Shown one piece after another: positions 46,461-52,813 of a DNA stretch of 64,000 nucleotides. The notes beneath the pieces are model-generated. The model made no database searches and was not told where the DNA came from. It saw nothing but the letters and a program-made list of their open reading frames with translations. The DNA is from Roseithermus sacchariphilus (GTDB lineage Bacteria; Bacteroidota; Rhodothermia; Rhodothermales; MEBIC09517), in assembly GCA_003285105.1 (NCBI GenBank), contig CP030158.1, forward strand, positions 1,898,501-1,962,500, given 5' to 3'. A program made the translations under genes and the position numbers. Position 1 is the stretch's first letter. Every line of letters begins with the position of its first letter.

Positions 46461-47312
46461 TCAGGCGGGGCCGGTCCGCAGCGCGCTCTCCAGGGTCGTG
46501 GCCGCGTCGGTGCGGGCATCGCGGTATTTGACGATGACCGGCGTATAGAGCGCCAGCCCGTGCTGCCGGGCAAAGGCCGAGTCCGCCGGTCGGCTGCCGG
46601 GCACCACCACGGCCCCGGCCGGGACCTCCAGCGTGCCGGTTTCGTCCGCCGTGTACACACGCTCGTGGACGAGGTCGTAGAGCCGCGTCGAGCGCGTCAG
46701 GATGACGCCGGGGGCCAGCACGGCCCGCTCGCGGATGAGGCAGCCCTCGTAGATCCCACAGCCGCCCCCGATGAAGGCGTCGTCTTCCACGATCACCGGC
46801 AGCGCACCGGCCGGCTCCAGCACCCCGCCGATCTGAACGGCCGCCGAGAGATGCACCCGCTGCCCGATCTGGGCACAGCTCCCCACCAGCGCGTGCGAGT
46901 CGATCATCGTCCCCGTATCCACGTAGGCGCCGACGTTCACGTACATCGGCGGCATGCAGACGACGCCGGGCGCCACGTAGGCGCCGCTGCGGATGGCCGA
47001 CCCTCCCGGGACGATGCGGACGCCATCCTCCAGACGCATCGCGCGGGGAGGATAGGTGTGTTTGTCGAAGAAGGCGAACGGCCCCGTGCTGAAGTCCGTC
47101 AGCCTGCCGAGCCGGAAGCCGAGGAGGATGCCCTGCTTGATCCAGGCGTGCGTCGTCCACGAGCCGTCCGAGGTGCGCGTTGCTGCTCGCAGGGTACCCC
47201 GGTTCAGGCTGTCGATCAACGCCGACACGGCGGCCTCGGCCTCGGGCCGGTCCAGCGCATCGGCGGGCTGGGACGTCAGCGCCTCGATGCGCCGGCGCAG
47301 GTCGTCGGTCAT
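46461..47312 (-). CDS. dapD: Tetrahydrodipicolinate N-succinyltransferase
   Basis: The 283-residue protein has a helical N-terminal domain (TDDLRRRIEALTSQPAD) and a left-handed beta-helix with hexapeptide repeats, including VNVGAYVDTGTMIDSHALVG and GGVLEPAGALPVIVEDDAFIG, typical of DapD. It transfers succinyl from succinyl-CoA to tetrahydrodipicolinate, so this organism uses the succinylase route to meso-diaminopimelate and lysine. It is the last gene of dapB-dapA-dapD on this strand. Confidence 0.96.
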   Translation of the reverse strand: MTDDLRRRIEALTSQPADALDRPEAEAAVSALIDSLNRGTLRAATRTSDGSWTTHAWIKQGILLGFRLGRLTDFSTGPFAFFDKHTYPPRAMRLEDGVRIVPGGSAIRSGAYVAPGVVCMPPMYVNVGAYVDTGTMIDSHALVGSCAQIGQRVHLSAAVQIGGVLEPAGALPVIVEDDAFIGGGCGIYEGCLIRERAVLAPGVILTRSTRLYDLVHERVYTADETGTLEVPAGAVVVPGSRPADSAFARQHGLALYTPVIVKYRDARTDAATTLESALRTGPA

Positions 47313-47391
47313 GGGGAGGGGGGAAGGTCGATGGAAACGGTCGAAGGGGCGCGGCGAGGAGGCGTCCGTTGCTCCGGCGCCCGGCCGGGGT

Positions 47392-48291
47392 CTACGCCGC
47401 AACGCTGATGAGCGTTTCGAAGGCTTCGAGGACCCGGCGGCGGGTGGTGTCCGGCATGGGGACGAGCGGCAGGCGCAACGTGGGTTCGATCAGCCCCATC
47501 TCGGCGAGGACCGCTTTGATCGGGATCGGGTTGGTGTCGAAGAAGCACGCCCGCATGGCCGGGAGCAGGTCCATGTGCAGCCGCCGCGCCTCGGTCACGT
47601 CGCCGGCCAGGGCCGTCCGCACCAGCGTGCTGAAGCGATGCGGCAGGGCGTTGCTGATGACCGAGATCACCCCGTCGCCCCCGAGCAGCACGAGCGGCAA
47701 CGTCCACTCGTCATCGCCGGCATAGACGGCCAGGTGGGCCGGTCGGTGCCGCAGGATGTCGCTGATCTGAGCCAGGTTGCCGGAGGCTTCCTTGATGCCC
47801 ACCACGCTCGGGACCTCCTCGGCCAGGCGCAGGACGGTGTCCGCCTGCAGGTTGAAGCTCGTCCGCCCCGGGACGTTGTAGAGGATGATGGGCAGGTCGG
47901 TGGCGTCGGCGATGGCGGCGACGTGGGCGCGGAAGCCCTCCTGCGAGGGCTTGTTGTAGTAGGGACCCACGACGAGCTGCCCGTCGGCGCCGGCGGCGGT
48001 GGCCTGACGGGCGAAGGTGACGCTCTCGGCGGTGGCGTTGCTGCCGGTGCCGACGATCACCGGCACCCGGCCGGCCGTGTGCGTGACGGCCGTCTCGACC
48101 AGGCGCACGCGCTCGTCGAACGTGATGGTGGGGTTCTCGCCCGTCGTGCCCAGCACGACGAGCGCCTCCACGCCGCCCTCGATCTGGTAGTCGATCAGCC
48201 GGCGAAACGCGGCTTCGTCGAGCGCGCCGTCTGCCGTGAACGGAGTGACGAGTGCCGGGGCGGTTCCGGTGAACAGGGGCGTGCGGCTCAT
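47392..48291 (-). CDS. dapA: 4-hydroxy-tetrahydrodipicolinate synthase
   Basis: The 299-residue aldolase-fold enzyme has LGTTGENPTI (GTTGE pyruvate-binding motif), the Tyr in YYNKPSQEG and PIILYNVPGRTS, and the Schiff-base Lys in VGIKEASG. It condenses pyruvate with aspartate semialdehyde, the committed step of the lysine/DAP pathway. It follows dapB by 10 nt and precedes dapD by 79 nt. Residues that bind feedback lysine in some DapA proteins cannot be judged by eye. Confidence 0.97.
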   Translation of the reverse strand: MSRTPLFTGTAPALVTPFTADGALDEAAFRRLIDYQIEGGVEALVVLGTTGENPTITFDERVRLVETAVTHTAGRVPVIVGTGSNATAESVTFARQATAAGADGQLVVGPYYNKPSQEGFRAHVAAIADATDLPIILYNVPGRTSFNLQADTVLRLAEEVPSVVGIKEASGNLAQISDILRHRPAHLAVYAGDDEWTLPLVLLGGDGVISVISNALPHRFSTLVRTALAGDVTEARRLHMDLLPAMRACFFDTNPIPIKAVLAEMGLIEPTLRLPLVPMPDTTRRRVLEAFETLISVAA

Positions 48292-48301
48292 GGGTTCGGG
48301 C

Positions 48302-49072
48302 TCAGCTTGCGGTGGTCAGAGAGAGGGTGGGGGCGGGCAACCCGTCTTGCAGGGCATCCTCCAGCGTGAACAGCCCGCGTCGCCCGGGCAGCCAGGCGGC
48401 GGCCTGGAGCATCCCCGCGGCAAAGCCGTCCCGGCTGGTGGCCTCGTGGGTGAGCAGAAGCCGGTCGTGCGGGCCTTCCACGGCGACGGTGTGTGTGCCG
48501 ATGACGTGCCCGGTGCGGGTGGACGTCACGTGCAGCGCGTCCGGGTCGATGCGCTGGTGCTGTGTCTCCGTGGCCAGGTGGGTCTTCCGGCCGAGGCCGT
48601 CGAGCAGGATGCGGGCCAGCATCAGGGCCGTGCCGCTGGGGCTGTCCGCCTTGCGGGTGTGGTGGACCTCGTGGAGCGCCACGTCGTAGTCCGGCAGCCG
48701 GTCCAGCAGCGGCGTCAGGTGCCGCAGCACCTGCGTCAGCAGGGCGATGCCAAGGGAGAAGTTGGCGGCGTAGAGCACCGCCGCGTCGTGGGCCTCCACC
48801 CACTGCCGGACGCGCGGCAGGGCGTCGTACCAGCCGGTCGTGCCCACGACGAGCGGCATCCCCCAGCGGCAGCACCGCTCGATGTGATCGAGGACGACGC
48901 CCGGCAACGACACGTCGATGGCGACGTCGGCTCCGTTGAAGGCCGCCAGGCCCTCGGCCTGCGACAGCGGCCGGCTCGTGTTGAACCGCGCCACCACCTC
49001 GTCGCCGCGCTGACGGGCCAGGTGCTCGACGGCCGTGCCCATCTGGCCGGTTCCGATCAGGGCGATGCGCAT
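48302..49072 (-). CDS. dapB: 4-hydroxy-tetrahydrodipicolinate reductase
   Basis: The 256-residue protein begins MRIALIGTGQMGTAV (nucleotide-binding loop; Gly-rich motif at 7-12) and has VVGTTGWY, AANFSLGIALL and the catalytic EVHHTRKADSPSGTA segment. It reduces the DapA product to tetrahydrodipicolinate. The ATG at 49072 gives the family N-terminus; upstream in-frame residues from 49144 are not conserved. First gene of the dap operon, facing the palindrome at 49177-49196. Confidence 0.96.
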   Translation of the reverse strand: MRIALIGTGQMGTAVEHLARQRGDEVVARFNTSRPLSQAEGLAAFNGADVAIDVSLPGVVLDHIERCCRWGMPLVVGTTGWYDALPRVRQWVEAHDAAVLYAANFSLGIALLTQVLRHLTPLLDRLPDYDVALHEVHHTRKADSPSGTALMLARILLDGLGRKTHLATETQHQRIDPDALHVTSTRTGHVIGTHTVAVEGPHDRLLLTHEATSRDGFAAGMLQAAAWLPGRRGLFTLEDALQDGLPAPTLSLTTAS

Positions 49073-49176
49073 GGAGACAACAGGCGTTCGTGGGAGGACG
49101 ATGCGGTCGTCCCCCAGGATAACAGCCCGCTCGCGCGGCCCCAAAAAAATGGACGAATCGAACGGTTATAACAAAA

Positions 49177-49196
49177 AATGTTGTATATACAACATT
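49177..49196. promoter_or_regulatory. Perfect 20-bp palindrome between dapB and the ACT protein: likely operator
   Basis: AATGTTGTATATACAACATT is its own reverse complement. A second small palindrome, GTTATAAC, lies at 49165-49172. The site is 33 nt ahead of the ACT-protein start and 105 nt ahead of dapB, where it would overlap both promoters. The surrounding 49073-49228 gap is strikingly AT-rich. Confidence 0.75.
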
Positions 49197-49228
49197 CGAT
49201 CCCGTGTATTCCCTGACTCCGCCGCCCT

Positions 49229-49900
49229 ATGCGCACGATATCCGAGGCCGTCCGTGATCTGGTGGCGGCCAACCCCTGGCTTCAGTTCGGGCTGCATCAC
49301 CGGTTGTTGAACCTCAGCCAGACGGCCCGCTTCCTGCAGCCGCTCGTCGAGGCACGGACGCAGAAGGCCGTCCGGCCGTCGGCCATCCTGATGAGCCTGT
49401 CCCGCCAGCAGCAGCACGTGACGTTGCCCGAGGTGGATCGGGTGGTGGAGTTCTACGTGGAGCGGATTCACGTGCATCACGGCCTCTGCTCGCTGACGGT
49501 GCCCCGAAGCCGCCGCACGCAGCAGGAGATCGACGAGTTGATCCGCCGGATCCGGCAGGAAGAGGGGTACCTGACGCTGACGGAGGGGCACACGGAGATC
49601 ACCGTGATCCTGGAAGGGGCGCAATGGGGCCACGTGCAGGCGGTGCTGACGGTCCCTCCGAAGCAGGTACAGCGACGTATGGCCGGGCTGGGGGTGACGT
49701 TCAAGGAGCAGTACCTCGACGTGCCCGGGTTGCTGTATCAGTTGTTGCAGCAGCTGGCGCTGCAGCAGATCAACGTGGTCGAGATTGCTTCGACGATGAC
49801 GGAGTTCAACATCTACCTGCACGAGGACGACCTCATGCCGGCCTTCGACGCGATCTATCGCAAGTTCGCCCGGGAGCGGACGGGCGGCTTGCCTCGCTGA
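49229..49900 (+). CDS. ACT-domain protein diverging from the dap operon, candidate lysine/DAP regulator
   Basis: The 223-residue protein has an N-terminal helical region (about 1-62; LHHRLLNLSQTARFLQPLVE) that could be a winged helix, and two ACT-like alpha/beta units at about 85-140 (HGLCSLTVPRSRR) and 155-215. The second is the clearer one (DVPGLLYQLLQQLALQQINV then STMTEFNIYLHEDD). ACT domains bind amino acids. Divergent position across a palindrome suggests an amino-acid-responsive repressor of dapBAD and itself. It does not match a classical regulator family I know, so the DNA-binding role is inference. Confidence 0.65.
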   Translation: MRTISEAVRDLVAANPWLQFGLHHRLLNLSQTARFLQPLVEARTQKAVRPSAILMSLSRQQQHVTLPEVDRVVEFYVERIHVHHGLCSLTVPRSRRTQQEIDELIRRIRQEEGYLTLTEGHTEITVILEGAQWGHVQAVLTVPPKQVQRRMAGLGVTFKEQYLDVPGLLYQLLQQLALQQINVVEIASTMTEFNIYLHEDDLMPAFDAIYRKFARERTGGLPR

Positions 49901-51006: not shown

Positions 51007-51118
51007 GCGGTCGTCAGCCGTCAGCGGTCAGTCGTCAGCTTTCAGCCAGCAGCCCTCCACCAGCAGCCAGCAGCCCTCCACCAGCAGCCCGAAGCCCGCC
51101 GCCAGCAGCCCACAGCCC
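51007..51118 (+). repeat. Heptad-repeat tract upstream of the DUF2357 gene
   Basis: About fifteen 7-bp units (TCGTCAG, CCGTCAG, CGGTCAG, CTTTCAG, CCAGCAG, CCCTCCA and variants) run to the ATG at 51119. The orientation is the same as in the copies at 36467 and 63719. There are no internal hairpins. Confidence 0.8.
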
Positions 51119-52813
51119 ATGACGCCGTTATTTACGCTCGATACGCCGCAGGTGCATCTGACGTGGAGCTTCCGGGCGGACCGGGTGCCGCCGGCCCTGC
51201 CGGGGGGGCATCCCCGGCCCGAAGCCGGGTGGTCGGTGCCGGTCGAGCCGCTGGACGGGACGGCGGGGCCGGACGCCGTGGCGGCTCCGCCGTTGTGGGA
51301 GCAGACCGACTACCTGGTGTTCGTGCAGAGCCGCTGCGGGCAGCCGGTGCGTCTGCGCCACCGTGATCCGGTGCTAACGGCCGGCCTGCATACGACCCCC
51401 GACGGCCGGGTGCAGCACGGGACGATCAACTTCGGCAGCCAGGTGGGGCAGAGCCGGTTCGTGGTGGAGGTCGGCGGGCGGCCGCACGTGGCGTTCACGG
51501 TGGAGGTGATCCCCTCGAAGCTGGATTATCGGTCGGACTACGCGGCGTTGCGGGACGAGGTGCAGGCTCTTGCGCGCTCGCTGGTGCTGGCGTACCTGCG
51601 GGCCACCGGCCGGCCGGCGCGCCCGGTCCCGGACGCCGCCGACGACGAACTGGCCTGGGCGCTGCTGCTCCGGGCCACGCTGGACGACCTGGAGGCGGCG
51701 CTGGGCTATCTCGCCCGGCATCCGCTCTGGGGCACGGCCCGGCAGGTCGAGCTCGCTCGGCCCGAGCGCATCCGGCGGCCCGACCCCGCGGTGCGGCGGG
51801 CGATGCAGCGTGCCCCGGCTCACCGGGCGGACGGTGGGGCCGGCGTGCACGGCGGCCGCGCCCGATGGCCGGCGGCCCGCCATGCGTACACGCTGGACAC
51901 GCCGGAGCATCGCTGGCTGGCGGCGCGCCTGCACGGCCTGCGGCGGCGTCTGGTCGCCCTGGCGGAGGGCGAGCGCCGGCGTCCGGGGCGGCGGGCGTCG
52001 GCGGTGCACGGCGAACTCGTGGCCCTGGCCGACCGGCTCGACCGGCTCACCCGGCTCGACGTGCTCCGTGCCGCTTCGCTGGAGGATCGGCCGGCGGCTC
52101 CGTCGCTGCGGCTGATGGCGGCCCCGGGCTATCGCGAGGCCTACCAGGCCTGCCTCCGCCTGCAACGCGGGCTGGCGCTCCACGGCGACGTGCTGGACGT
52201 CAGCCTGAAGGACCTGCACGTCCTGTACGAATACTGGTGCTTCCTCACGCTCGTGCGGGCAACGGCCGACGTGCTCGGCACATCGCTGCCGTGGGCCGAT
52301 CTGCTCGCGGTAGAGGCCGACGGCCTGCGCGTGCGGCTGCGCCGGGGGCGCCGGCAGACGGTCGTGGTGTCCGGGGCCGGCGGCGTGCGCGGGGCGATCA
52401 CCTACAACCCCCGGTTCGGCGGGCCGGGCTACCTCGTGCCGCAGCAGCCCGACCTGATGCTGACCCTCACCGCCCCGGGCCGGTCGCCCCGCCGCTGCAT
52501 CCTCGACGCCAAGTACCGCCTCGACGCCTCGCCCGCCTACGTGGCCCGCTACGGCCTGCCCGGCCCGCCTGCCGACGCACTCAACACGCTGCATCGCTAC
52601 CGTGACGCCATCGTCGATGCCGAAGGGCGGCGCACGGTCACGCAGGCCGTGGCGCTGTTTCCCTACCGGGAAGCCGTTCCCGGCACCTACGCCGCGGGCC
52701 GCCACGCCCGCGCGCTGGCCGAGGTGGGCGTCGGCGCGATCCCGCTGCTGCCGGGCGCCACGCAGCACCTGACCGCCTGGCTGGCCGGCCTGCTCACACC
52801 CGGCGGCGGATGA
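51119..52813 (+). CDS. DUF2357 protein with PD-(D/E)XK nuclease domain, McrC-like
   Basis: The 564-residue protein has an N-terminal beta-rich DUF2357 region (about 1-150; GTINFGSQVGQSRF), a helical middle and a C-terminal restriction-endonuclease-fold domain with the motif QQPDLMLTL followed by CILDAKYRL (PD...D-x-K). DUF2357/DUF524 proteins usually pair with McrB-like ATPases as the nuclease arm of modification-dependent restriction. The only McrB-like gene in view is the EVE fusion at 37862, about 11.5 kb away. The gene's coding start abuts the heptad tract, so an alternative later start is possible. Confidence 0.8.
   Translation: MTPLFTLDTPQVHLTWSFRADRVPPALPGGHPRPEAGWSVPVEPLDGTAGPDAVAAPPLWEQTDYLVFVQSRCGQPVRLRHRDPVLTAGLHTTPDGRVQHGTINFGSQVGQSRFVVEVGGRPHVAFTVEVIPSKLDYRSDYAALRDEVQALARSLVLAYLRATGRPARPVPDAADDELAWALLLRATLDDLEAALGYLARHPLWGTARQVELARPERIRRPDPAVRRAMQRAPAHRADGGAGVHGGRARWPAARHAYTLDTPEHRWLAARLHGLRRRLVALAEGERRRPGRRASAVHGELVALADRLDRLTRLDVLRAASLEDRPAAPSLRLMAAPGYREAYQACLRLQRGLALHGDVLDVSLKDLHVLYEYWCFLTLVRATADVLGTSLPWADLLAVEADGLRVRLRRGRRQTVVVSGAGGVRGAITYNPRFGGPGYLVPQQPDLMLTLTAPGRSPRRCILDAKYRLDASPAYVARYGLPGPPADALNTLHRYRDAIVDAEGRRTVTQAVALFPYREAVPGTYAAGRHARALAEVGVGAIPLLPGATQHLTAWLAGLLTPGGG

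Follow-up and report, generated by a model that had tools for sequence, protein, structure and literature searches.

In the genome of Roseithermus sacchariphilus, a stretch of 64,000 nucleotides (contig CP030158.1, positions 1,898,501 to 1,962,500; hereafter the window) contains a perfect 20-bp palindrome in the gap between dapB and a divergent gene for a 223-residue protein with two ACT units. The comparative analysis described here suggests that this ACT protein is, with good probability, a one-component, lysine-sensing and autoregulated transcription regulator and that the palindrome is its operator. Computation shows that the gene family exists, that its protein has the ACT fold, and that a conserved operator lies at lysine genes when whole genomes are scanned and co-occurs with the protein. 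From these observations we infer that the ACT protein binds the palindrome, that lysine is its ligand and that it acts mainly by repression.

A conserved putative operator at lysine genes

A sequence-only reading of the window had drawn attention to the palindrome, which was found exactly as described and only once in the window, as AATGTTGTATATACAACATT at 49177-49196. The gap in which it lies extends over 156 bp between the ATG of dapB (49072, minus strand) and that of the ACT gene (49229), and its GC content is 0.54 compared with 0.68 for the window. The palindrome ends 33 bp before the ATG of the ACT gene. The elements of the presumed switch are as follows:

49177..49196, no strand: putative operator; half-sites TGTTG (49179-49183) and CAACA (49190-49194) with a 6-bp spacer, kept as TGTTA-N6-TAACA in relatives
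49169..49173, no strand: probable third half-site TAACA, 5 bp before the first half-site of the palindrome; a YAACA-like element is equally placed in most Rhodothermia sites
49229..49900, plus strand: regulator (ACT) gene, 223 residues; residues 1-66, four-helix domain (putative DNA binding); about 73-145, ACT unit 1; about 146-217, ACT unit 2

AATGTTGTATATACAACATT exceeds every other perfect palindrome in the window in length, and a scan of the whole 4.8-Mb genome revealed no other site that matches GTTRTATWTAYAAC without a mismatch. By block shuffling, about 0.27 palindromes of at least 20 bp are expected per window, while 2 of 20,000 shuffles of the palindrome's own 70-bp AT-rich stretch yielded one of this length. 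Taken alone, the palindrome is only mildly unusual, and it is conservation that gives it weight. Another long perfect palindrome of the window, the GC-rich 18-bp sequence CGGGTCGTGCACGACCCG, is located at 650-667.

A related site is present upstream of the ACT gene in all Rhodothermia members that were read; its sequence is GTTGTATATACAAC in the window and GTTATATTTATAAC or a close variant in the others. A spacer of 6 bp separates the half-sites TGTTA and TAACA, and most sites have the third half-site 5 bp upstream. When Rhodothermia genomes were scanned as a whole with the pattern TTGTTAYATTTRTAACAA, each of seven Rhodothermus-type genomes had one site with zero or one mismatch, which was always located between the ACT gene and lysCA, a lysC-lysA fusion. 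In G010, a genome with an unlinked lysCA, there are exactly two sites within three mismatches, one in the gap between the ACT gene and dapB and the other 271 bp upstream of lysCA. Conservation in relatives, which had been set beforehand as the test of the palindrome, was thus observed: the site accompanies the dapB pair in some relatives and lysCA in others, and it also stands at lysine genes that are unlinked. The distance between operator and start codon varies from about 16 to 271 bp. Weak extra sites in those Rhodothermia genomes whose loci were read (L016-L019, L061, L062, L077-L080) are, as far as the reading frames tell, not at lysine genes and look like chance matches.

The same operator occurs in Flavobacteriaceae. 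A scan of 12 genomes with at most one mismatch uncovered 21 distinct sites, of which 18 are at lysine genes: the ACT gene (6), a saccharopine dehydrogenase gene with the domains Sacchrp_dh_NADP and Sacchrp_dh_C (6), an AlaDh/PNT-type gene that is presumably Lys1-like (4), lysA (1) and a GNAT-lysC pair (1); the other 3 are elsewhere. In a second clade of the family, the operator has the form TGTTAAATAATTAACA and often touches the ATG of the ACT gene. An exact scan of 14 genomes of this clade with TGTTAWATAWTTAACA returned 26 sites, 23 of them at lysine genes (10 precede the ACT gene in a region shared with lysC or lysA, 8 are at lysA, 4 at asd and 1 at an unlinked lysC) and 3 elsewhere; the reversed pattern returned none. 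Reversed half-sites with an 8-bp spacer overlap the same palindrome and hence provide no independent control. In L287, L302 and L306, also from Flavobacteriaceae, mscL-like and alanine racemase-like genes are followed by asd, and the operator lies between mscL and asd. Moreover, a DUF423 membrane-protein gene is adjacent and divergent to the saccharopine dehydrogenase gene in L083, L089, L096, L098, L100 and L101, the operator region being common to both genes.

Operator and ACT gene also occur together. For this comparison, regions upstream of the saccharopine dehydrogenase gene were collected from 47 genomes with and 33 genomes without the ACT gene, together with the regions upstream of 60 ACT genes. 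The scoring matrix was trained on Rhodothermia sites only and is therefore independent of the Flavobacteriaceae genomes compared. At a matrix score of at least 12, the saccharopine gene has a site in 14 of the 47 genomes with the ACT gene and in 0 of the 33 without it, and 21 of the 60 ACT genes have one; the reversed matrix gave 0. If TGTTA-N6-TAACA is sought with at most one mismatch from -150 to +9, the corresponding counts are 14/47, 1/33 and 46/60, compared with shuffled means of 1.0, 0.8 and 2.2.

The proposed regulator family and its gene neighbours

The ACT protein represents a single-copy family in parts of Bacteroidota/Rhodothermia. It is encoded by 11 among 195 genomes of the class, and among 394 genomes drawn from the phylum 44 were carriers by profile, with one copy each, and 45 by single-sequence query, one of which is marginal and has internal stops. 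In a sample of Flavobacteriaceae-type genomes, comprising one genome per genus and named as a family from gene content, 79 of 120 carry the gene. The residues N28, M55 and R59 of the N-terminal domain and G120, E123, Y170, E185, S188, T189 and E192 of the ACT part are among the invariant ones. Second protein matches in two Rhodothermus genomes (L013, L014) turned out to be a LacI-type protein, found by chance.

In the window, Pfam matches bear out the identity and order that had been proposed for the dap genes, which are arranged head to tail on the minus strand:

48302..49072, minus strand: dapB, dihydrodipicolinate reductase (Pfam DapB_N and DapB_C), divergent from the regulator gene
47392..48291, minus strand: dapA, dihydrodipicolinate synthase (Pfam DHDPS, 3.1e-94)
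46461..47402, minus strand: dapD, tetrahydrodipicolinate succinyltransferase (Pfam THDPS_N_2 and Hexapep)

The ACT gene lies opposite dapB in four Rhodothermia, the window genome being one of them, and in Rhodothermus it lies opposite lysCA, with dapD and a phosphoenolpyruvate (PEP) carboxylase gene downstream. In Flavobacteriaceae, the divergent gene is lysC in several genomes and lysA in others, lysC being the commonest, and in one further family it is dapA. In Flavobacterium-type genomes, a yraN-like gene, which was assigned by eye, adjoins the ACT gene instead. The aspartokinases adjoining the ACT gene retain their own ACT domains. A locus from a Bacteroidota metagenome-assembled genome (L056:662-4657; JAUQWO010000079.1) contains a LysW-type lysine operon divergent from the regulator gene. 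This operon encodes a LysW-like small protein ending in EDWGE, a member of the homocitrate/isopropylmalate synthase family, LysX, which matches TIGR02144 above its cut-off, and ArgC/LysY, and by its gene content it apparently specifies a LysW-carried aminoadipate route to lysine.

Elsewhere in the window genome lies a short aspartokinase-like gene (C1:3743911-3744810, about 336 codons) whose match covers the kinase part only. Such genes are also present in G003 and G010, and for none of the three genomes was an operator found near them in the loci scanned. Tandem-like short stretches (units beginning with GTCAGC and CCAGCAGCC) occupy window positions 51015-51105, directly upstream of a gene starting at 51119.

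Predicted fold of the ACT protein

The structure models draw on five sequences. The full-length model (mean predicted local distance difference test score (pLDDT) 83, predicted template modelling score (pTM) 0.61) has four helices followed by two ACT units, which agrees with the two ACT units and helical N-terminus expected from the sequence. As modelled, residues 73-217 fold as a tandem ACT pair of the aspartokinase type: they align with aspartokinase regulatory domains (Z 15.3, root-mean-square deviation 2.3, 138 residues aligned; 3c1n) and with human CASTOR1 (Z 9.5), and the pair has a profile match to the aspartokinase regulatory domain 2re1 (E 1.8e-4). However, Pfam searches detected no AA_kinase domain (PF00696) in the ACT protein or its relatives. 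Likewise, LysR-type helix-turn-helix and substrate-binding domains of Pfam had no match in these proteins, and the Lrp/AsnC domains of Pfam had none in 18 members at E values up to 5.

Modelled alone, the N-terminal domain (residues 1-66) forms four helices with high confidence (pLDDT 90, pTM 0.74). A DNA-binding fold in this region, for instance a winged helix, had been set beforehand as the second test; no solved fold of that kind matched significantly, and the model does not itself show a winged helix. Among the weak fold matches is the putative DNA-binding domain at the C-terminus of DEK (Z 3.8). The N-terminal region also matches DUF7523 (PF24367) weakly in 9 of 18 members (best E 1e-4); the first member scanned reached 20.7 bits compared with the curated cut-off of 27 bits, and a DUF7523 search of the window genome gave no match. 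The N-terminal domain thus appears weakly related to the archaeal DUF7523, and a distant relation is possible.

Proposed mechanism and alternative explanations

A dimer or higher oligomer of the ACT protein would bind TGTTA-N6-TAACA via the N-terminal four-helix domain, and binding of lysine to the aspartokinase-like ACT pair would alter its affinity for DNA. The single site in the window could serve two divergent promoters, that of the regulator gene, which would account for autoregulation, and that of dapB-dapA-dapD. Repression is proposed since promoters or start regions of biosynthetic genes overlap the site; the simplest action there would be occlusion by the lysine-bound protein when lysine is plentiful. 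The sequence-only reading had proposed that the protein binds the palindrome and senses lysine or diaminopimelate. Comparative data support the proposal, binding of DNA and of ligand being presumed, and of the two ligands they favour lysine: since the diaminopimelate and the LysW/aminoadipate routes share only lysine as end product, lysine rather than diaminopimelate is the likely signal.

Several observations weigh against this regulator model. Neither fold search nor PDB sequence search linked the N-terminal domain significantly to a solved DNA-binding protein, and in some Flavobacteriaceae the domain carries almost no net charge. Operator sites are absent from the unlinked lysC-like genes of the window genome and, in the second operator clade, from the saccharopine gene of most genomes. 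Moreover, the saccharopine genes may be catabolic, in which case the opposite sign of control would be needed, and the site counts across genomes ignore kinship among them. The missing DNA-binding fold and the near-neutral charge would also suit an arrangement with a genuine operator and lysine regulon in which another DNA-binding protein occupies the palindrome and the ACT protein acts only as lysine sensor or co-regulator. We consider this unlikely because at a matrix score of at least 12 the saccharopine-gene site is absent from all 33 genomes without the ACT gene, no regulator-like gene other than the ACT gene recurs next to the site, and a mere sensor subunit would have no use for the separate N-terminal domain, which is conserved and in which N28, M55 and R59 are invariant.

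The aspartokinase-type ACT pair, together with lysC as the commonest divergent neighbour in Flavobacteriaceae, could also point to a regulatory subunit that has become detached from aspartate kinase or from another lysine enzyme, with the palindrome belonging to an unrelated control. Yet the adjoining aspartokinases have kept their ACT domains, the neighbours also include dapB, dapA, lysA and the LysW operon, without lysC, and the co-occurrence of gene and operator would be left unexplained; such a subunit is very improbable. Control by RNA or by a core promoter element deserves equally little credence. The -7 box of Bacteroidota is TAnnTTTG, and the Rhodothermus site does contain a TATATTTG-like sequence; a transcript across the palindrome could also form a hairpin of 8 bp. 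However, the hairpin is unremarkable (folding z -0.98), and neither a terminator nor a sigma-70-like match was found. A covariance search with Rfam upstream of dapB detected no riboswitch, including the lysine riboswitch, as the sequence-only reading had already noted. Each Rhodothermus genome has just one copy of the full site, which is therefore not a general promoter, and start codons lie anywhere from about 16 to 271 bp away from it. A chance palindrome without function, although about 0.27 of this length are expected per window, is refuted by conservation and the regulon, and its probability is negligible.

Relation to known systems and significance

Ligand-responsive one-component regulators are well known, and lysine genes are controlled by Lrp-type, LysR-type and riboswitch systems. 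The regulatory domain of aspartokinase (Pfam ACT_9/ACT_7), which binds lysine or threonine, resembles the ACT protein in its tandem ACT fold (Z about 15 over 138 residues), in the 2re1 profile match and in the pathway it serves, whereas the ACT protein has a four-helix domain in place of the kinase domain and shares only about 10-15% identity with it. Lrp/AsnC-type amino acid regulators, such as LysM of Sulfolobus, are likewise small, amino-acid-responsive proteins with an alpha-beta ligand domain that control lysine genes, but none of 18 members of the ACT protein family matches their Pfam domains, and the ligand part is an aspartokinase-type ACT pair. In other bacteria, genes of this pathway are under the control of the lysine riboswitch, whereas a palindromic DNA site and a protein gene are found here. 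DUF7523, an uncharacterised archaeal family present in Haloferax volcanii, resembles the N-terminal region of the ACT protein weakly; the match is below the curated cut-off, and the model has 158 positions compared with about 220 in the ACT protein. BCARR from Lactobacillus helveticus is an amino-acid-responsive DNA-binding protein, as the ACT protein presumably is, and ACT domains are mentioned in the text of the paper that describes it; it differs by the N-terminal CBS domains and the role in the proteolytic system that are reported in the abstract (PMC3795697). The open literature that was searched, which leaves aside subscription papers and regulon databases, contained no description of this family, operator or regulon, and no lysine regulator for this part of Bacteroidota.

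The putative DNA-binding domain of the regulator has no assigned family. It is conceivable, and we suggest it tentatively, that the four-helix domain is an unrecognised DNA-binding domain which, joined to aspartokinase-like ACT sensors, defines a regulator family from Bacteroidota to archaea (DUF7523) that controls whichever lysine pathway the host has, be it diaminopimelate, LysW/aminoadipate or saccharopine interconversion. The proposal offers a possible function to proteins that no curated family covers, and it provides a lead on the archaeal DUF7523. The regulon is testable in culturable Rhodothermus and Flavobacterium, and an aspartokinase-type ACT lysine sensor could serve as a biosensor part. 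With one protein family and one operator, the model would cover lysine genes throughout the phylum, among them those of two unrelated biosynthetic routes.
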